A stretch of DNA of 64,000 bases, from positions 561,163-625,162 of the forward strand of contig NZ_CP006270.1 in NCBI RefSeq assembly GCF_000737575.1. The letters are read 5' to 3'. A program made the translations under genes and the position numbers. Below, piece by piece: positions 44,451-54,807 of the stretch; the first letter of the stretch is position 1, and each line of letters starts with the position of its first letter. This DNA is from Synechococcus sp. KORDI-49 (GTDB lineage: Bacteria; Cyanobacteriota; Cyanobacteriia; PCC-6307; Cyanobiaceae). The notes under the pieces are model-generated. The model saw nothing but the letters and a program-made list of their open reading frames with translations, ran no database searches and was not told the DNA's origin.

Positions 44451-46013
44451 TCAGTCCGGAGTGATCAACTCAAGGGTGTCACGCGCACGCGTGATGGCCG
44501 TGTAAAGCAGCCGGCTGGCGTGACGGTCCAGGGGATCGGACTGCAGCGAATGCGGCCAAAGCACCGTGACGCCATCCGCCTCACTGCCCTGTGCTCGGTG
44601 GATGGTGAGCGCCACCGCCGGCTCCACTCGCTGCAGCCGGGCCGGATGCAGCCGCCTCACCACGACGCTGCCGTCTGCGCCCAGCACACGGAACAGCAGA
44701 CAGGAGCCCTCTCCAAGCCCGAGCTTGACGCCGAGATCGCCGTTGGCGAGCCCAAGTTCCGGCTGATTGCTGCCGCAGATCACCGGTAGACCGACCGGCC
44801 AACTCCAGGGGTCCTGGACGCCGGCCGCTCCCAGCAGGGTGCGATGAACATCCTCAAGGCTCCAGCGCCCCTGGCGTCTGGGACAGAGCACCAGATCGTG
44901 CTCGAGCTCCCTGAGCAATGGCTGGGACGCCTCCTCCAGATCGGCCTCCTGCATCATCTCGAGGCCTGATGCCAGCTGAGCCAGACGCTCCAAACGCGAG
45001 GGCCAGCTCTTCCGCAGCGCCAACGGCAGTCGCTGCAGAGGTTCCCGTCGATGCAGCACGTTCGCTGCCGGCGGCAATCCATCCAGTTCCTGCGCGAATC
45101 CCTCCAGACCGTCCTCGCGAAGCCTGCTGGCCAGCTGAGCAAGGGCGCCGCGATTGCGGTAGACGTGCATTAGTTGCACCGCAGCAGGCCCGAAGCGGTC
45201 CCGCACGTCAGGGTCCTGAAGCCGATGCCAGACCGCACCGCTGCCCACCGGCGGCAGTTGTGCCGGATCTCCCACCAGGATCAGGCGGCAGCCGGAGGGA
45301 AGAGCCTCCAACAGAGCCTGCATCAACGCCAGATCCAGCATCGACATCTCGTCGATCACGAGGAGATCGAGCTCCAGAGGCCGGCTCCGGTTGCGGCGGA
45401 ACCCAGCACTGGAAGCCTCGAGCCAACGATGAAGCGTGCTGCATGGGAGATCAGGACATCGGGGGCGAACGGCATCCGCCAGACGGCGCGATGCCTTTCC
45501 GGTGGGCGCGGCCAGGCCGATGCGCAGATCCGGATGGCGGGCCCTCGCCCGTTGCAGCATCTCCACCACGGTGCTGGTCTTGCCGGTGCCGGGTCCACCA
45601 CTGAGCAGCACCACAGACAGGTGATCCGGTGCCAGCACCGCCTGGCGCTGCTCATGATTCAGGCCCCGCGGCAGATCCGGAAGCGCACCGGAGCGGGAGA
45701 CAGGCACAGGCCTGGAAGCCCGCTCCAACAGCTGATCCACCACCGCCTGCATCGCTGTGAGCCAGCGGCGCCAGCCGATCCGCTCCCCCTCCACCATCAG
45801 CGGCGCCGCCTCGCCAGTCAGCCAGCCGCTGGATCGCGCCACTGCCCGGCGCTCCGCCGTCAGCGGCAGTGAAAGCTCGCCTTGCTCAAGAGCCGCCACG
45901 AGATCGGTACTGAGCTGTTCGAGAGCGGCATCCGTCTCGGACGGCGGTCGATGCCGCACCAGCACCGCATGCACTGCTGCGGCGAAACCGGCGGGCCAGT
46001 TGCTTCCGGTCAC
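44451..46013 (-). CDS. recD: RecBCD exonuclease V alpha subunit, 5'-3' helicase
   Basis: 520 residues. Walker A GGPGTGKTSTVV, LAAPTGKASRRLA, VIDEMSMLDLALM, LVGDPAQLPPVG and the C-terminal ALTIHRAQGSEADGV plus LLYTAITRAR show the SF1B helicase RecD. It is adjacent to recB on the minus strand with an ATGA-type overlap at 46010-46013. The cupin gene follows with no gap. Confidence 0.94.
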   Translation of the reverse strand: MTGSNWPAGFAAAVHAVLVRHRPPSETDAALEQLSTDLVAALEQGELSLPLTAERRAVARSSGWLTGEAAPLMVEGERIGWRRWLTAMQAVVDQLLERASRPVPVSRSGALPDLPRGLNHEQRQAVLAPDHLSVVLLSGGPGTGKTSTVVEMLQRARARHPDLRIGLAAPTGKASRRLADAVRPRCPDLPCSTLHRWLEASSAGFRRNRSRPLELDLLVIDEMSMLDLALMQALLEALPSGCRLILVGDPAQLPPVGSGAVWHRLQDPDVRDRFGPAAVQLMHVYRNRGALAQLASRLREDGLEGFAQELDGLPPAANVLHRREPLQRLPLALRKSWPSRLERLAQLASGLEMMQEADLEEASQPLLRELEHDLVLCPRRQGRWSLEDVHRTLLGAAGVQDPWSWPVGLPVICGSNQPELGLANGDLGVKLGLGEGSCLLFRVLGADGSVVVRRLHPARLQRVEPAVALTIHRAQGSEADGVTVLWPHSLQSDPLDRHASRLLYTAITRARDTLELITPD

Positions 46014-49000
46014 CGTCCCCCCTCCTGCAGCAACCGGTCGAGAGCCAGCACCCGCCTCAGTGGAGCCGGCTCGACGATCCGCCCCGGAGCGGCACGCGAG
46101 CCGGGCTGACGGGAACCGGGCATCCCGCGCAGGAAGGCGTAGACGTAACCACCCAGATGACGTTCAGGCAAATAGCCGGGGAGGCGCCAGCGCAGATGGC
46201 GATGCAGAGCCACCAGATACAGATGAGCCTGCAGCGGGTAGTGGTGATGGATCATCTGCAGGCCCATGGCCGCATCGGTGTAATGACGCGGACCGCAGCG
46301 GTCGTCTGAGCCATCACCGGAGCGTTCGCCGATCCAGTTGCTTTTCCAGTCCAAGACCCACCAGCGCAGGTTGGGATCCACAAACACCAAATCGATCGAT
46401 CCGGTCAGAAACCCGCGGCTGTTCACCGAGAGGCTCGCCAGCCGTTCGAGATAGTCCTCCCCGAAACGGGCCTCAGGCTCGGCCTGAAAGGCCTTGACCA
46501 GATCAGCCGTGCGCACCTGCTCAACCGGCAGGTCGAATCCGAGTTCGGGGTGTCGCTGCTCCGGGGCGAGCTGATCGAGGCTCAGATCGCCGAGGGGACC
46601 ACCGAGCGGGGTCTCGACCACCAGGCGGAGACCCTGCTGCACCGCCGGGACCCAGCTGATGTCGAGCCCCGCGCGGCGGAGCTCCGCCTCGACCAGCTCC
46701 GGATCCGGTGTGGAGGGCTGATACGACACCTGCTCAAGAATGCGATGCAGGCAGTCCCCGGCAGAGGCACCCCGCGGGAAATCACGGAGCGGGCCATCCT
46801 CCGGCCAGTGGTCGTCGACCTCATCAAGGATCTCCTCACCCTCAGGATCGGCATCGCGACCCTGCTCATGACGGGCCGGATCCTCCGACGTGGCCGTCCA
46901 GGCGGAGTAGCTGGAGCGGCCCCAGCGGCGGTCGATTCGCTGCGGAACCGCACCGATGCAGAGACGGTCAGTTGGCGCAGGGCTGCGCCAGCGACGGGGT
47001 GCCGGATCCGGCGGTTCCAGGCTGGTCAGCTCGATCGCCAGAGCTCGCTCAGCCAGTTCCGCACTGAGGCGCTCATCCGTCAACTGATCGATCGGCTGAC
47101 CCACGGCATCCGCACCGAACAGCCAGCTCACGAGCGGAGAGCCCTCCTGACGCGTGACCCTGGCCCAGACGAGCACCAACTGGGAGCGTGCACGGGTGAG
47201 CGCCACATAGGCCAGGCGTTCCGCCTCAGCCATCGCCGCCGTCTCCTCCTGCTGCGCCAGGTCCAGCCCCCGTCCCCAGCGGGAATCGAGCAGCAACCGC
47301 CAGGAACCCTCCCCGCCGTCCCGCCAGAGCGGACCACCCCCGACCCGGGGGCCTTCCCAGAGCGTCGGGCAGATCACCACCGGATATTCCAGCCCCTTGC
47401 TGCGGTGCACGGTCACCACGGCGATCGCACTTTCAACGAGATCGCTATGGGGCTGACGCGGTTCAGGAACGGGATCAGCAGGGTGCAGACGCTCACGCCT
47501 CAGCCAGGTCGCGGCACTGGCGATGTCGAGTCCCTGACGGTGCATCACCTCCTGCACCAGCCGGGCCGCCTGCTGCAGATCACCGAGCATCCGGCCGCGA
47601 TCGGAAAGCTCCGCCATCCGCTCTCCATCCAGAAGGTCCGAAAGGCATCCCAGAAGACCGATCGTCGGCATCTGGACCGCCCATGCACGCAGCCGCAGGG
47701 CGAGCTGGTCCAGGCGACCGTCGATGCTCAGATCATCAGGCGGCCATCCCATCAGGGGCGAGCAGGCCAGCAACCGCAGACGCCGCTCATCCCCGGGTTG
47801 GGCGAGAGCATCGAGCAGGCGCTGAAGCACCACGGCCGCTTCCGTCTCGAACACATCCCCCTGGCTCACGAGACGGGTCGGCAGGCCTCGGCTCGACAGA
47901 GCCCGACGCAACTCCGTGGCCTGACGGTGGGTGCTGACCAGCAGGCAGAGCTGCGCAGGCGTCAGGTCGTCCCGTTCCTGCAGGAGCCGCAGCACGGCAT
48001 CCGCCAGACGCAGTGGCAGCTCCTCGACCAGTGCCGTCTTGGTGAGCGGAGTCTCTCCGCACCAATGAAGCAGCTGCAGCGGGCAACCCCGCGGAGGAGC
48101 CTGCGCACTGCCGCGGGGCTCCACCGCAGGCACCGGCAGTTCGGAACGCACCAGTCCAGGGCGCATCAGATCATTCAGGGCACGCATCAGAGTCGGTGTG
48201 GTGCGGAAGTTCTCCTGAAGGGCGTCAATCCGGTCCGCCTGACGGCGTGCCTGGAGATAGGTGTCCAGGTCGCCGCCTCGGAATCGGTAGATGGCCTGCT
48301 TGGGATCACCGACCAGCAACAGCAGATGATTCCCCCGCTCCGCAAAGGTCCGGCGCAGCAAGCGCCACTGCAAGGGATCGGTGTCCTGGAATTCGTCCAC
48401 CATCACGGCCCGGTAACGACACCGCAACGGCTCCAGCCATGGAGCGTCCTCCTCTCCCGGATCCAGGGCCGCCAGCAGCCCGGGGAACGAGATCACACCG
48501 CGGCGCGTCCGCCTCGCGGCAAGCTCCCGGAGCGCGCGGTTCAGAACAAAGCGCCAGACCCGCTCAGGTGGTCCGTCCCAGAGGGCGGCCATCACCTGCT
48601 GCAGCTCCGCTGCCGCCAGCGAGGGATCGCTCTCGCCGCAGCGTCTGGCGGTACTGCACCAGCATCCGGGGTGGAAGTAGTCGCGCAGAAGTCCCTTCTG
48701 CGCGCGAATCGCGGTCAGCGACGGAATGCCGTTCTGATCGGCAATCCACCGATCCAGCAATGCGCAACGATCCGTGCGGGGCTTGCCGCTGTAGGGCTTT
48801 GTGTCCCTGCAGCCCTGGGCCTTCCACTGAGCGGCACTGCTGCGGAAGCGTGTTTCGAGCGATTCGCCATCCCGCTTCCAGAGAATGAGAAAACGCTCCC
48901 AGCAGCGCCCCATCCAGAGCTGCAGCTGAGCGGCAAGGGGTTCGTCGGGGTCGAAGTCATCCCGTTCTGCGAGAACGCAGGGATGTGGCTCGCCGTCCAG

Positions 49001-49609
49001 AACCCGCAGGGCCTGCACCATCGCCTCCGGAGACAGCCCGCTTTGGCGCAGACCAATGAGCTGATCCGCAGGCAACGTCAGCAGCTGGTCACGCCAGATG
49101 TCCTGCACCACCTGCTGCAGCAGGTCGGTGGAGTCGGTCTCCAGCTCAGGATCCATGGCAGCCCCGCTGCTGAGGGCCATCCGCCGCAGCGTGCGGCGGC
49201 AGAAGCCATGAATCGTGGTGATATCGGCCCGATCGAGCTGTTCCAGCGCAAGAAGCAGGCAGCTGATCCACTGCCTGCGAAGCGTGGTGTCTGCCGCATG
49301 CTCCAACCAGTTCTCAAGAACCGGGTCGGCAGCTGGAGGAGCAGCCTCAGTCTCGAGCGCTTCCAGGCCTTCGAGGGCAGCCTGGAAGCGCTGGCCGATG
49401 CGTGAACGCAGCTCGTCCGCCGCAGCTTCGGTGTAGGTGACCACCAGCAGCTGCTCCAGCGGATGCTGCGCTTCGGTGATCAGCCGCAGGCAGAGATGGG
49501 CGAGCGCAAAGGTCTTGCCGGTTCCGGCGCTGGCCTCGAGCAGGCGCAGCCCTGGGACCAGGGGATAGCTGTTGGCCTCAAACCGCTGAACCATGCCGGG
49601 AAGCGACAT
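46010..49609 (-). CDS. recB: RecBCD exonuclease V beta subunit, 3'-5' helicase and nuclease
   Basis: 1199 residues. The N-terminal UvrD-like helicase has Walker A ASAGTGKTFALAHL, VDEFQDTDPLQW, GDPKQAIYRFRGGDL and VHRSKGLEYPVVI. The C-terminal nuclease domain has the acidic/Lys motif VFVDPNLRWWVLDWKSN. The complex processes double-strand breaks and feeds RecA. The recC gene lies at 51565-54807, separated from recB by the linker and phosphatase genes, an unusual split. A tiny plus-strand reading frame starts 92 bp upstream. Confidence 0.95.
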   Translation of the reverse strand: MSLPGMVQRFEANSYPLVPGLRLLEASAGTGKTFALAHLCLRLITEAQHPLEQLLVVTYTEAAADELRSRIGQRFQAALEGLEALETEAAPPAADPVLENWLEHAADTTLRRQWISCLLLALEQLDRADITTIHGFCRRTLRRMALSSGAAMDPELETDSTDLLQQVVQDIWRDQLLTLPADQLIGLRQSGLSPEAMVQALRVLDGEPHPCVLAERDDFDPDEPLAAQLQLWMGRCWERFLILWKRDGESLETRFRSSAAQWKAQGCRDTKPYSGKPRTDRCALLDRWIADQNGIPSLTAIRAQKGLLRDYFHPGCWCSTARRCGESDPSLAAAELQQVMAALWDGPPERVWRFVLNRALRELAARRTRRGVISFPGLLAALDPGEEDAPWLEPLRCRYRAVMVDEFQDTDPLQWRLLRRTFAERGNHLLLLVGDPKQAIYRFRGGDLDTYLQARRQADRIDALQENFRTTPTLMRALNDLMRPGLVRSELPVPAVEPRGSAQAPPRGCPLQLLHWCGETPLTKTALVEELPLRLADAVLRLLQERDDLTPAQLCLLVSTHRQATELRRALSSRGLPTRLVSQGDVFETEAAVVLQRLLDALAQPGDERRLRLLACSPLMGWPPDDLSIDGRLDQLALRLRAWAVQMPTIGLLGCLSDLLDGERMAELSDRGRMLGDLQQAARLVQEVMHRQGLDIASAATWLRRERLHPADPVPEPRQPHSDLVESAIAVVTVHRSKGLEYPVVICPTLWEGPRVGGGPLWRDGGEGSWRLLLDSRWGRGLDLAQQEETAAMAEAERLAYVALTRARSQLVLVWARVTRQEGSPLVSWLFGADAVGQPIDQLTDERLSAELAERALAIELTSLEPPDPAPRRWRSPAPTDRLCIGAVPQRIDRRWGRSSYSAWTATSEDPARHEQGRDADPEGEEILDEVDDHWPEDGPLRDFPRGASAGDCLHRILEQVSYQPSTPDPELVEAELRRAGLDISWVPAVQQGLRLVVETPLGGPLGDLSLDQLAPEQRHPELGFDLPVEQVRTADLVKAFQAEPEARFGEDYLERLASLSVNSRGFLTGSIDLVFVDPNLRWWVLDWKSNWIGERSGDGSDDRCGPRHYTDAAMGLQMIHHHYPLQAHLYLVALHRHLRWRLPGYLPERHLGGYVYAFLRGMPGSRQPGSRAAPGRIVEPAPLRRVLALDRLLQEGGR

Positions 49610-49700
49610 CAGAAGTCTGATGGCGTTCCCTCACCATTGCTCCTTGCTGATTGACACGATTTGGGTGCTGAGCCACAACAGACGTGCCGATCTTTTTGCC

Positions 49701-49790
49701 ATGGCACGCCAATTAACATCAATCGGGCTGCTCGGAGTGGCCATCGTCGGGCTTTACATCTTCGCCCTCGTCAACAGTTTTGGTTTCTGA
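49701..49790 (+). CDS. Very small hydrophobic membrane protein (29 aa)
   Basis: ATG 49701 opens MARQLTSIGLLGVAIVGLYI followed by FALVNSFGF, a single membrane helix with a Lys-free basic N-terminus. It resembles the tiny subunits of photosynthetic complexes in size, but I do not recognise a family and see no strong ribosome-binding site. It is divergent from recB and converges on the linker gene, ending 10 bp from it. Confidence 0.45.
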   Translation: MARQLTSIGLLGVAIVGLYIFALVNSFGF

Positions 49791-49800
49791 CTCTCAGCGA

Positions 49801-50733
49801 TCAGAGCCCGAGGAACATTGCAGGAATCCGATCGAGCCCGTTGTAACCGAACATCTGGGCCATCACATTCACCAGCATTCCCGCCAGGTGAGCGCCTCCG
49901 ACGATAGCGAGACCACGCCACAGCTTTTCATAGGTCGCCGGAGGCTTGCCGCCGGACCAGGACATTGAAGTTTTCATGTACAGAGGAGCCTCCGGGACGT
50001 TGATTTCAAGAACCGAACCTGATGCCAGATTGTTCTGAAGAATACTGTCAGAGCCTCTGGAACGATCACTGCTTGCAAAGCTTTGTTCCATCGCCGCGAT
50101 CCTGACAAAGTTCATCATCGACATGCCACCGGCTGATGTGAAGGCACGCACATAGGGAACAGTGTCGGCTCCGAAGACTTCGGTGTACTCAGGGGAATCC
50201 ACAAGACTGTCGATCACGGCTTCAAATCCCTCACTGGCCTGCTGCTCAATGCAGCCGGAGACTTCGCTCTGACTGAGCGGCGGACGACCGAGGACATGCT
50301 TGAACGCGAGCTCGACCCCACGAGTCGGGGGAACCGCTGCATAAAAACGAGCGCGGTAGAACTCACTCTTGGCCAGACCACGCACGAAGTCACGGACGCA
50401 GAGACGACCATCCTTCAGCTGTGCCTCCAGAGTGGAAGATCGCTCCTGTTCCATCACATGGCAGTTACCGAAGACCTGGCGGTAAGCAGCCTCAATCACC
50501 GGATCCAGACTGTCTGAATCCGTGCCTGCCAACACCCTTGAGGTGACACGGTGGGGGCACTCATTGTGATCGCGAGGGCCGAAGGGAAGTGACATCCCAC
50601 TGCAGGCACGACGACGGAACTCGGCATTTGTCAATGCCGAGTCAATACTTTTTGTCTGTGATGCTGCAAAGCTGACCGGTCCATTCTTGGACTCAGCACC
50701 GAAGCGGAACTTTGGAGACGAGGAAGTGTTCAT
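49801..50733 (-). CDS. Phycobilisome linker with C-terminal membrane helix
   Basis: 310 residues from ATG 50733; the frame stays open further upstream to 50862 without a conserved pattern. Residues about 75-225 form a phycobilisome linker domain closest to the ApcE repeats: VIEAAYRQVFGNCHVMEQER, GRLCVRDFVRGLAKSEFYRA, ELAFKHVLGRPP, EYTEVFGADTVPYVRAF. Near the C-terminus (about 273-293) lies a hydrophobic helix, GLAIVGGAHLAGMLVNVMAQ. This arrangement is like CpcL, the linker that attaches phycocyanin rods to photosystem I, but with an ApcE-like repeat. It is monocistronic. Function is inferred. Confidence 0.8.
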   Translation of the reverse strand: MNTSSSPKFRFGAESKNGPVSFAASQTKSIDSALTNAEFRRRACSGMSLPFGPRDHNECPHRVTSRVLAGTDSDSLDPVIEAAYRQVFGNCHVMEQERSSTLEAQLKDGRLCVRDFVRGLAKSEFYRARFYAAVPPTRGVELAFKHVLGRPPLSQSEVSGCIEQQASEGFEAVIDSLVDSPEYTEVFGADTVPYVRAFTSAGGMSMMNFVRIAAMEQSFASSDRSRGSDSILQNNLASGSVLEINVPEAPLYMKTSMSWSGGKPPATYEKLWRGLAIVGGAHLAGMLVNVMAQMFGYNGLDRIPAMFLGL

Positions 50734-50975
50734 CGGAGCAGGAGTCCAGATCTTTGAATACCAAGCCAAAGAGATGGCGCTCAAAGAACACTCGAGCAGC
50801 CGCGATGGTATTGGCGCTGGCATGAAAGTAGTCGCAGATGAACTGGCATTCCCTTTGGTCAAACAAAATTCACATCCGCGGTGATTGCTGATGTTTTATT
50901 TCCTTAAATTCAGGTTCATGACCCACAACACCCTGGTAGCTCGGTGTTGAACAGCACTGTCCGGCAGCACCTGTC

Positions 50976-51446
50976 TTGCCAGAACAAGACGACAGGTTCT
51001 CCACCGTGGCCGTGACCGACGTTCTGTTCCTCTGCACCGGCAATTACTTCCGCAGTCGCTTCTCCGAAGCCCTGCTGCGCCATCTCTGCCGGGGCAACCC
51101 TGAGCTGACGGTGCGCTCCGCCGGTTTGCAGGTGGATCCCGCCAGCGGGAATGTCGGTCCGATGGCGAAGGAAGCTCTGGAGGCGCTGCGGGAACGGGGG
51201 ATCGAGCTTGATCCAGGCATTCAGCCGATGCCTCGCCAGGTGGAGGAAAGGGATCTGGAGCAGGCAGATCTGATCATCGCGGTGGATGCCGCTGCTCATC
51301 GGCCGATGGTGCGTTCAGGCTTTCCGGCCTGGGAGAACAGGATCCGCTTCTGGGGCGTGAAGGATCTCGGTGAGGAGGCTGCTGGCGACCCGATCGTTCA
51401 GCTGGAGCAGCAGGTGAAACAGCTGCACGATGAGCTCTCTCGGTGA
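50976..51446 (+). CDS. Low-molecular-weight protein-tyrosine phosphatase-like protein
   Basis: 156 residues from ATG 50976; GTG at 51006 or 51012 is also possible. The active-site loop CTGNYFRS fits C-x5-R-S with an unusual Tyr-Phe. DP in GDPIVQ is where the general-acid Asp is found, and LIIAVDAAAH matches the family's middle strand. It could act on tyrosine phosphates, for example in exopolysaccharide control. It lies between the linker gene and recC. Confidence 0.78.
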   Translation: MPEQDDRFSTVAVTDVLFLCTGNYFRSRFSEALLRHLCRGNPELTVRSAGLQVDPASGNVGPMAKEALEALRERGIELDPGIQPMPRQVEERDLEQADLIIAVDAAAHRPMVRSGFPAWENRIRFWGVKDLGEEAAGDPIVQLEQQVKQLHDELSR

Positions 51447-51564
51447 CCATCCGCTGACTGGGTGTCGAAAGCGGGTCGGAACCGCAGCACGACCAGGAGG
51501 TTCTGAATAGGTTTCGTCGGCAGGGCAGACCACTGGCTCGTGAAGCAGTGGATCTGCCTCATGT

Positions 51565-54500
51565 TCAAGTCCTGCGGGCGCGGAGAATCGGCTCGTAGAG
51601 CTGGCGGGATGCGTTCTCAAATCCGGGAGCCTGCAGCAGCAGAGCCGGGTCCGACTCAACACCGAAGCAGAGTTGCATCGCCGGTGAATCCCGTTCGTCC
51701 AGCCAGGTCTGACGGAATGCCTGTTCACCACTGCCGCACCTCCGCTGCTCCTGCCAGACCATCTGCCAACCGCTTTTCGGCGGCACGGGCCAGCATTGCG
51801 ACAAGCCATCCTGCGCCAGACGCTGCAGGTCGCTGAGGATCGTCAGAGCCTCCTCCACCGACAGAGGATCCCAGAGCAGCAGCAATTCCGCACCTGCCTT
51901 CGTGCTGCTTCGACCCACCACTCCAGTGCCCATCGGAGGGTCATCGGCAGCACACAGCAGCAGATGCTGAAGCCATGCCCGCATCACCCCGCGGGCGCCG
52001 GGCCGTCCCACCTGCACCACGAACTGGGTGTCCCCCGCGTACAGAAGCGGGACAGCAGCACCGGCGAGCTGCCGCTGTTCACGACGGCATGGGCCGAAGG
52101 GTTCAATCTGAGCAGCCAGTGCTGCCCAGCGATCCAGGAGCTCCTGCTGCTCCAGCGCGGCTCCTGCCGCCGCCGGAAGGACGCCGCGGCCCTCCAGATC
52201 GCGACACCAATCGGGACGGTCCCTGCCGAGAAGATGCAGATCCAGGGATTCTTCCAGCAGGCCATGACGCTGCAGGGCGTCCAGCTCCAGATCATCCAGA
52301 TCACGCACCGGCTCGACCCCCTCTCCTGGATGAAGCCGGCGGTGCCGCAACCAGGCCGCCTGCGGCTGAATCATCCAGCGCAGCAGCTCCTCCACCGGCA
52401 ACGCAGTCGGCTCGGGCGGATCGGGGGGCTCGGGGGGATCCCAGACCAGAGGCAAGGCCAGTCCCTCCGGAGCGGGAGGGCGTGGCTGATCCAGGCAGAG
52501 GCGTGCCGCGAGCTGACGGCGATCACAGCTGAGTGGCGCCTTGATCTGAAAATTGGCGCGATCAAGGGGACTGGGAGGCGGCGTCAGCAGCAGTCCTTCC
52601 GCCTGCTCCGGGGAGAGCTGGCTCCTCAGCGATCGCAACCACTGGTCAACGGGTGCCGCCGGTGGCAGCTCCTCACCCGTGCGCTCGCTGCGTCCGCACC
52701 AGCTGATCAGGAGATGCTGTCGGGCCGACATCAGAGCCTCAAGCAGCACGTAGCGATCCTGATCTCCTCCGCGGGGATCGCCGAGCTGGCGCTGCTGTTC
52801 CAGCAGATGAAAGCCCGGTCGGTTGCTCTGACGCGGGAAATCCCGCCCATCCAGACCCATCAGCACGATCACCTTGTGGGGAATGGCCCGCATCGGCTCC
52901 AGGGCACTGACCGTGAGGGCGCCGCTGCGATGACCGAAGCGACCGCTGTCGACCGAGAGAGCCTCAGACAACACTTCAAACACCACCGATGCCTCCAGGT
53001 CGAGCTCGCAGGTCTCGGCACGTCGGCGCCACTCCTCCAGAGCCGCCAACCAGCTCTGTCCTTCCCGCTCCCAGGCGCCACCGTTCCCGAAGAGGTCCTT
53101 GAGCAGACGTTGCAGCTGCTCCACCCACCCCGCACAGGGCTGCGGACGGCGCAACTGAGCGATCCACCCCGCCAGCCGATCCAGCAGGGACCACCAGCGT
53201 GCCAGCTGATCCGGATCCAGATCCTGATGAAACGGTGCAACACCTCCGGGCGCCAGACCTCTCTGATCGGGAAGCACCAGACCGAGCAGCCAGCGATCCA
53301 GACACCAGCGAAGGCTGTGGGTTGGATCGCCTCCCCGCTCATCGGCATCGAGGCCCCAACGGAATCCACTGCGCTGCAAGGTGGCTGTGAGCAGAGCGCT
53401 CTCCTCAGCCGACAGCCCCTGCTGCCGCTGGACCGCCGGGTTGGCCAGGAGCCGCTCGAGGCCGCTGGCCGTCAGACGTCCGCCGGCCAGCTGCAGCAGA
53501 TCCAGCATGGCCATCGACAGGCCCGGACTGCTTTGCTGACTGCGATCAGTGAGGCGCCAGGGGAGGTCCACTCCCGTCGCGCCGCGGTCATTGAACACGG
53601 ATGCCAGCAGCGGTGCGGCCCGGTCGATCTGGGGGGTCATCACCAGCACATCCCTGGGCTCGAGTTCCGGATCCGATGCCAGCCATTGCAGGATGCGATC
53701 ACGGACGAGCTGCACTTCCCGCCAGGGGCCGGGGGCTGACTGAAACAGCAGCGACTGATCGTTCGGGCTGAGGGTCAGCGTGGTCGCCTGACTCTCGGCA
53801 TCCGTCGTTTCGGCCTCCGCAAGCTGGGTCTGCAGCTGCTCGAGAAGTGTCGGCGGCCGGTTGCAAGCAGCGGCGATGCTGACGCCATCGGCGAACAGAT
53901 CCCCCGTGCGCACCTCCCCGAGCTGGGTCTCTCCGGATCCCTCCAGCAACTGCTGAAACTCCGCCCCCATACGGCCCAGGGTGGCCTCCATCCGGGGAGC
54001 CTTCTCAAGCCAAGTTCCGTCCGGGGGCTCCAACCAGTCCGCACCCAGCTCGAGACGCCTGCTGCCGCAGCGTTGCCAGAGATCGCGACAGGGGGTGAGC
54101 AGGTAGATCTCCACATCCACCCAGCCCGACAGTGCCTGGATCAGCTCCACCTGCACAGGGGCCAGAGCGCTGATGCCGAAAAGGCGGAGACGGCGGGGCA
54201 GATCCTCCCGGCGCACCGTTCCCTCCCGCAAGCGCTGCACCGCCTCACGCACCTGCAGACCGAAGGGCTCCCGGGGGAGCACCTCAGCCAAGCGGCGCCA
54301 GAGGAGCGGTTGCCAGTCCGCCTGCGCCCTGAGATCCCCGTGGCGCCAGGCCGTGAGGGTGTCCGGTCGATAGAGGGCATAGTCATCGAGGGCATCGGCG
54401 ATCGAGCGGGCCAGCTGCCAGCGGTCGCGGCTCAGGGTTTCAACGGAGGCTTCCCGTCTCTCCAGCCAGCGCTGCAGAGGAGCCGCCTGAGGCTCCCGGA

Positions 54501-54807
54501 GCAGTGCCGGCAACTGATCCAAGACGACCCAGACGAGTCGTCCGGCCCGCCAGGGGTCGTCTTCCTCCGCAGGCAGCTGCAGCACCAGACGCACCAGCTG
54601 GCGCAACCGGCTGCCCGGGAAGGGGAAACGCACCAGTGAGCTGATGCCGTTGGCGGCAGCGAGCTGTTCCCCCAGCCAGCGGCTGGTGGGCCAGGTGTTG
54701 ACCATCACCTCGACCGTTTCCATCGGCCCGGGACACTCCTCCTTGAGCTGACGGGCCAGAAGCGCAGCGAGAAACTCCGCGCGGTTGCTGCGATAGAGCG
54801 TCAGCAA
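51565..54807 (-). CDS. recC: RecBCD exonuclease V gamma subunit
   Basis: 1080 residues of the RecC family: LTLYRSNRAEFLAALLARQL, VMVNTWPTSRWLGEQLA, LRLFGISALAPVQVELIQAL, VLVMTPQIDRAAPLLASVF and VIVLMGLDGRDFPRQ. RecC recognises Chi and splits the DNA strands. It starts at a TTG and overlaps the stop of the upstream phosphatase gene by 7 bp. It is far from recB-recD but on the same strand. Confidence 0.93.
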   Translation of the reverse strand: MLTLYRSNRAEFLAALLARQLKEECPGPMETVEVMVNTWPTSRWLGEQLAAANGISSLVRFPFPGSRLRQLVRLVLQLPAEEDDPWRAGRLVWVVLDQLPALLREPQAAPLQRWLERREASVETLSRDRWQLARSIADALDDYALYRPDTLTAWRHGDLRAQADWQPLLWRRLAEVLPREPFGLQVREAVQRLREGTVRREDLPRRLRLFGISALAPVQVELIQALSGWVDVEIYLLTPCRDLWQRCGSRRLELGADWLEPPDGTWLEKAPRMEATLGRMGAEFQQLLEGSGETQLGEVRTGDLFADGVSIAAACNRPPTLLEQLQTQLAEAETTDAESQATTLTLSPNDQSLLFQSAPGPWREVQLVRDRILQWLASDPELEPRDVLVMTPQIDRAAPLLASVFNDRGATGVDLPWRLTDRSQQSSPGLSMAMLDLLQLAGGRLTASGLERLLANPAVQRQQGLSAEESALLTATLQRSGFRWGLDADERGGDPTHSLRWCLDRWLLGLVLPDQRGLAPGGVAPFHQDLDPDQLARWWSLLDRLAGWIAQLRRPQPCAGWVEQLQRLLKDLFGNGGAWEREGQSWLAALEEWRRRAETCELDLEASVVFEVLSEALSVDSGRFGHRSGALTVSALEPMRAIPHKVIVLMGLDGRDFPRQSNRPGFHLLEQQRQLGDPRGGDQDRYVLLEALMSARQHLLISWCGRSERTGEELPPAAPVDQWLRSLRSQLSPEQAEGLLLTPPPSPLDRANFQIKAPLSCDRRQLAARLCLDQPRPPAPEGLALPLVWDPPEPPDPPEPTALPVEELLRWMIQPQAAWLRHRRLHPGEGVEPVRDLDDLELDALQRHGLLEESLDLHLLGRDRPDWCRDLEGRGVLPAAAGAALEQQELLDRWAALAAQIEPFGPCRREQRQLAGAAVPLLYAGDTQFVVQVGRPGARGVMRAWLQHLLLCAADDPPMGTGVVGRSSTKAGAELLLLWDPLSVEEALTILSDLQRLAQDGLSQCWPVPPKSGWQMVWQEQRRCGSGEQAFRQTWLDERDSPAMQLCFGVESDPALLLQAPGFENASRQLYEPILRARRT

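Follow-up and report, generated by a model that had tools for sequence, protein, structure and literature searches.

The minus strand of the Synechococcus sp. KORDI-49 genome encodes, at positions 49801-50733 of the window, a phycoerythrin-II (PEII) rod linker whose C-terminal tail is homologous to the tail of CpcGII, the CpcL-like linker. The window is the whole 64,000-nucleotide stretch analysed (positions 561163-625162 of the 2,585,813-base genome). The gene appears to be the mpeG of Six et al. 2007 (PMC2246261). We consider it probable, at roughly 0.6, that this PEII rod linker carries a membrane-docking module at its C-terminus, which would hold a PEII disc on a thylakoid complex, perhaps photosystem I (PSI). 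Insertion into the membrane, the partner complex and energy transfer are the parts of this reading that we infer. Judged from the sequences compared, discs of phycoerythrin, a blue/green-light antenna, may attach straight to the photosynthetic membrane.

The open reading frame, 310 amino acids plus a stop codon, was identified from the ORF list, its Pfam domain and its orthologues, and its start methionine is conserved in all nine rows of the orthologue alignment. Among the 98 genomes searched, KORDI-49 included, 97 others were covered and nine of them match residues 1-310 or 2-310 with 57-63% identity; the copy in G014 contains an internal TAG. After these come the N-terminal halves of MpeD, at up to 52%. 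A full-length relative in Synechococcus RCC307 (CT978603.1:1241193-1242122, loci L138/L025) is 57% identical over residues 1-310. In that strain an unlinked PEII linker related to the N-terminus of MpeD was named MpeG (Six et al. 2007, PMC2246261). The RCC307 relative is taken as mpeG because its position is unlinked to the rod region, and the window gene would then not be new, MpeG having been in print since 2007 (PMC2246261). The text of the same paper calls the RS9916 product both MpeG and mpeF. Among the matches listed, MpeG is present in ten genomes (that of KORDI-49 and the copy with the TAG included), MpeF in four, and both together in none.

A link to type IV chromatic acclimation was considered, but in counts over 19 near-complete genomes of the genus MpeG or MpeF showed no clean association with a second lyase copy. 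With a query lyase that we take to be MpeY-like, a second copy, read as mpeZ, was found in 10 of the 19; MpeG or MpeF is present in 8, together with this second copy in 6. KORDI-49 itself has MpeG and lacks a second MpeY-like lyase copy.

The class of the linker domain is clear from both profile and tree analyses. A Pfam search returned a single PBS_linker_poly domain (PF00427) at residues 72-196 (50146-50520, minus strand), scoring 157.3 bits against a cut-off of 28.7; the whole genome has 11 PF00427 matches. The first-pass annotation had read this domain as an ApcE-like repeat. PF00427 is indeed found in both proteins, but ApcE has repeats whereas MpeG, with 310 amino acids, has one domain, lacks a phycobiliprotein domain and lies outside the ApcE repeat groups. 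In phmmer comparisons with solved structures, a CpcC-type rod linker gave a single-domain score of 136 bits and the repeats of CpcN gave 116-138 bits; scores were lower, 87-97 bits, for the repeats of the two ApcE chains listed, and reached 92 bits for CpcG and 88 bits for CpcL. A tree was built from 100 linker domains, chosen from about 500 in the fetched loci and labelled by similarity and position. It places the window domain inside the PEII clade (support 99/92, starred), which also holds the MpeD N-half, MpeC/MpeE-type linkers and MpeF. The ApcE repeats are located elsewhere and the MpeG domain groups with none of them, so the ApcE label is rejected; an ApcE origin of the domain is ruled out by the scores and the tree placement together. 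The same early reading's idea of an attachment that does without a CpcG-type domain fits the tree. CpcG and CpcL form a clade of their own (100/99), apart from the MpeG domain, which rules out an origin from either.

The MpeG linker domain is thus of the type seen in PEII rod linkers such as MpeD and MpeE, and MpeG is 52-54% identical to the MpeD of the same genome. One long-branched MpeC/E-type row from KORDI-49 fell within the MpeG group of the 100-row tree; in a tree with more columns (30 PEII rows), MpeG forms one clade (95/94) and this row lies outside it. A separate observation from the 100-row tree concerns Leptolyngbya sp. PCC 7375, which has a 1022-amino-acid open frame with four PF00427-type domains (L188:5689-8754). 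One of these domains groups with marine 304-amino-acid PE linkers, and the protein is possibly a chain linker like CpcN.

The N-terminal region (residues 34-71; 50521-50634, minus strand) carries C44 and C59 in the pattern CxxM....GPRxHxxCP. Their spacing of 15 is that found in the N-half of the KORDI-49 MpeD, and MpeC and MpeE, like the N-half of MpeD, have in common with MpeG both the linker clade and the cysteine pair. Both cysteines are kept in eight of nine MpeG rows, the ninth (G024) having lost both, and in 12 of the 13 rows of MpeG and MpeF combined. In WH8102, two cysteines within residues 43-59 of MpeD bind PUB (Six et al. 2007, PMC2246261). It seems likely that C44 and C59 of MpeG bind PUB in the same way. 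The KORDI-49 genome encodes further alpha and beta subunits, read by eye as a second phycoerythrin, and PEII is therefore probably present in this strain.

The C-terminal module (residues 258-310; 49804-49962, minus strand) comprises W259, P264-P265, the motif EKLWRGLA, a helix and the ending LDRIPAMFLGL. Over nine rows, the tail (residues 258-309) has a mean pairwise identity of 0.82, against 0.67 for the linker domain and 0.43 for the variable spacer (residues 231-257; 49963-50043, minus strand). None of the other regions compared is so well conserved, and 32 of the 52 tail columns are invariant. Selection acts on the protein sequence of the tail, since its fourfold sites have diverged (mean 0.58 over 28 pairs of eight genes) while amino-acid identity stays at 0.83. 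A profile of 16 CpcGII tails, from which MpeG was left out, was searched against the whole KORDI-49 genome; it found CpcGII at 1.7e-27 and mpeG at 2.5e-7, with a third match at E 0.97. The reverse profile, of eight MpeG tails, found MpeG at 3.4e-37, CpcGII at 2.5e-8 and the next match at 0.093. Profile-profile comparison gave 97.6% for CpcGII and MpeG, 98.0% for CpcGII and MpeF, and 93.5% for MpeG and MpeF. Similarity of the marine tails to CpcL tails of other cyanobacterial families is weak (54 and 56% in the same type of comparison), and the Synechocystis CpcL tail begins W-x-W-Q...P, a start of the same kind. Among solved structures, the tails of CpcGII, MpeG and the free proteins described below have no credible relative; a distant CpcL tail (L104) finds only Synechocystis CpcL, at E 0.8.

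According to profile searches and hydropathy, the tail is absent from the MpeD, MpeC/E-type, CpeC/E-type, CpcGI and ApcE linkers of KORDI-49. It is likewise absent from all 13 fetched single PE linkers presumed to be Prochlorococcus-like, in which the best tail-profile E-value is 0.18; this set leaves out G048 and G059, each also with one match. A different kind of tail was observed in the CpcGIII-type linkers (L091-L098, L108-L112), the third CpcG copy of several strains. Their C-terminal helix is much more hydrophobic (19-residue peaks 2.1-3.1) and the motif preceding it differs (IYxxPxG); they are a possible second CpcL type in marine strains.

The hydrophobic C-terminal helix proposed from the first inspection of the sequence is present, with properties that are marginal for a membrane helix. 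The Kyte-Doolittle 19-residue profile peaks at 1.64 over residues 274-292. AlphaFold2 predicts a helix at residues 267-295 (49849-49935, minus strand) with low confidence, the 10-residue mean pLDDT being 38-48 in the tail part. Since a peak of 1.64 is reached somewhere in 378 of 2000 shuffles of the MpeG protein, hydropathy alone is weak evidence. The best peaks of the KORDI-49 MpeD (1.16) and MpeC/E-type linker (0.72) are lower and neither is C-terminal. On an approximate insertion scale the energies are about +3.9 kcal/mol for MpeG, +3.7 for CpcGII and +3.0 to +3.1 for MpeF, against -2.5 to +0.1 kcal/mol for three CpcL-like proteins of other families. A helix of this kind may depend on a partner protein within the membrane, a requirement that would agree with docking on a complex.

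The marginal hydrophobicity also suits an alternative, unlikely but worth weighing, in which the helix is a protein-protein module and not membrane-spanning. It would pack on the CpcGII tail, on the free small protein, which KORDI-49 lacks, or on another partner, and would place PEII in ordinary phycobilisomes. Conserved polar residues within the helix (His282, Asn289 and Gln293) and the conservation of the last ten residues of MpeG are consistent with such a role. However, the hydrophobic moment of residues 274-292 is low (0.14, with a mean hydrophobicity of 0.65), unlike that of a surface amphipathic helix, and MpeG was not found in the RCC307 phycobilisomes described by Six et al. 2007 (PMC2246261).

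As far as the text of Six et al. 2007 (PMC2246261) reports, the products of mpeF and mpeG were not found in isolated phycobilisomes, and RCC307 MpeG and CpcGII were not found in the phycobilisomes of the strains analysed, as expected for membrane-retained linkers. CpcGII was seen once, in WH8102 phycobilisomes, and the same text gives lack of expression or failure of detection on the gel as other reasons for such absences. CpcL, the known counterpart, is a linker that ends in a helix and supplies energy to PSI (PMC10322944, PMC12461855, PMC11165356). Its PF00427 domain lies in the membrane-proximal hexamer, its transmembrane region is unresolved in the structure, and the coreless phycobilisome passes energy to PSI (PMC10322944). 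Like CpcL (CpcG2 of Synechocystis, CpcG3 of Anabaena), MpeG combines a single PF00427 domain with a hydrophobic helix at the C-terminus, and the KORDI-49 CpcGII, a member of the CpcG/CpcL clade, has its tail module in common with MpeG. Unlike CpcL, MpeG has a PEII-type linker domain and a less hydrophobic helix, extended by the conserved LDRIPAMFLGL end; the direct similarity of distant CpcL tails to that of MpeG is weak. A membrane-retained PEII disc or short rod is the best supported reading because of the CpcL-like order of parts and the absence from phycobilisomes.

In the arrangement proposed, the linker domain of MpeG would lie within the PEII hexamer cavity, with C44 and C59 carrying the PUB chromophore as in MpeD. 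Whereas MpeD goes on into a PEI linker domain, MpeG instead continues into a short spacer and the conserved helix, a tail that the KORDI-49 MpeD and MpeC/E-type linker lack. This helix would hold a PEII disc or short PEII rod on a thylakoid complex without an allophycocyanin core, and by analogy with CpcL the partner complex could be PSI. The idea of a second membrane-attached antenna mode, put forward in the first-pass annotation, survives in part. Its ApcE basis was mistaken, the protein being a PEII linker, but the non-CpcG linker domain and a tail module common to CpcGII and a free protein speak for it.

Chlorophyll absorbs poorly near 565 nm. Because PEII emission, near 565 nm (Six et al. 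2007, PMC2246261), meets this poor absorption, direct transfer from PEII to PSI may be inefficient. The poor overlap to be expected between PEII emission and chlorophyll, the patchy distribution (nine of 97 other genomes) and the unlinked position of the gene could point instead to a membrane-bound assembly or storage factor for PEII assembly, repair or degradation, which would not be an energy-transferring antenna linker. This seems rather improbable, as the linker domain is complete and the PUB-binding cysteines are present in eight of nine rows, like those of structural PEII linkers. That MpeG is an ordinary soluble rod linker, an alternative to MpeE or MpeD with a tail of no special role, would agree with the suggestion that MpeF or MpeG could replace another PEII linker under some conditions (Six et al. 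2007, PMC2246261), but is very improbable for a protein whose tail is more conserved than any other region compared and is homologous to the CpcGII and free-protein modules.

The tail also exists as a small protein of its own. A combined tail profile run over 400 genomes of the family gave a match in 186 at E up to 0.001, and picked up short open frames as well, roughly 60 to 116 codons long. The 20 short-frame places that were read (L267-L286) encode proteins of about 58 amino acids which, like MpeG, end in LDx[I/L]PAxFLGL. Eleven of these proteins aligned with 27 invariant columns, and Pfam and NCBIfam searches with three of the proteins gave no match. Among the matches listed, 15 of the 19 near-complete genomes of the window genus have a free copy, 13 of these copies being read as sequence and two (G028 and G031) taken from the listing alone. 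KORDI-49 carries the tail only on MpeG besides CpcGII, and the free protein is absent; G006 and G015 carry it only on MpeF besides CpcGII, again among the matches listed. Viral contigs gave no relative of MpeG or of the small protein, and phage records gave no match to the small protein. Two further genomes deserve mention. For G008 (2.0 Mb, 98% complete) the matches listed include no tail at E up to 0.001, whether on CpcGII, MpeG, MpeF or a free protein, and just one match of CpcG type was obtained at E up to 1e-30. G016 has two free copies with the LDRIPAMFLGL ending of MpeG.

The relationships among these tails suggest a history of fusion. With a profile of the free proteins, MpeG tails score 98-115 bits, CpcGII tails 16-41 and MpeF tails 9-11; with the CpcGII profile, MpeF (32-46 bits), MpeG (29-41) and the free proteins (19-44) score much alike. 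In a tail tree of only about 58 columns, MpeG and the free proteins form a clade (100/100) apart from CpcGII and MpeF, and the position of MpeF beside CpcGII is weak (31/27). MpeG is nested in the free proteins (99/89), and the free copies of G165 and G186 lie inside MpeG. The MpeF of Six et al. 2007 thus has a different tail from MpeG, outside the clade of MpeG and the free proteins. The simplest reading of these sequences is that the MpeG tail derives from a free protein, MpeF having acquired a different tail related to CpcGII. The difference in kind between the tails favours two fusions, within the limits of the short tail alignment and of the similar CpcGII-profile scores; the linker tree is compatible with a common origin of MpeF and MpeG (p-AU 0.209). 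In both G021 and G024, less than 1 kb separates the free gene from cpcGII, and neighbouring genes resemble cpcT and unk5 by eye. It may tentatively be proposed that the free protein, with its single helix, is an unrecognised subunit for docking phycobilisomes to the membrane in marine Synechococcus; MpeG would be its fusion to a PEII linker, and MpeF a parallel fusion whose tail is nearer CpcGII. These proteins and CpcGII would then make up a route, independent of the core, that fixes PEII or PC discs to a thylakoid complex such as PSI.

A structure paper of 2023 counts five linker types described earlier, among them the rod-membrane linker (LRM), which it equates with CpcL (PMC10696076). If the preferred reading is true, MpeG would add a second rod-membrane linker, of the PEII type and with a membrane module, in one of the ocean's most abundant phototrophs. 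It would bear on the balance of excitation between photosystems in phycoerythrin-rich cells and would explain the absence of MpeF and MpeG from isolated phycobilisomes. The free small protein is a concrete new gene to test. The literature searched, most subscription papers and all preprints being outside its scope, gave no account of a membrane-type tail on MpeG or MpeF, of the homology between this tail and CpcGII, or of the small protein in its free form. In the main text of Six et al. 2007 (PMC2246261), as far as it was covered, the word "hydrophobic" does not occur and "transmembrane" occurs once, for unk3.

The genomic setting of mpeG varies, and the neighbourhoods compared have no neighbour common to all orthologues. 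In KORDI-49 it is flanked by genes that by eye resemble recD/recB and recC (window 44451-54807), and relatives of the same recB-like and recC-like genes also flank mpeG in G024. The gene may have been acquired by movement into this recB/recC-like locus, since its GC content (0.561) is below that of the window (0.641). A scan of positions 49600-51100 found one promoter-like site (shuffles 0.5, sd 0.7) and four terminator-like sites (shuffles 1.4, sd 1.1); no terminator-like site directly follows the mpeG stop codon. A 29-codon open frame (MARQLTSIGLLGVAIVGLYIFALVNSFGF; 49701-49787, plus strand) lies tail to tail with mpeG, 10 bases separating the stop codons. Similar sequence occurs in four of 33 other genomes of the genus (G024, G007, G017 and G032), of which the last three have no full-length mpeG among the matches listed; in G024 the relative lies about 300 bases upstream of mpeG. 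This recurrence in other genomes of the genus suggests that the frame may encode a small membrane protein.
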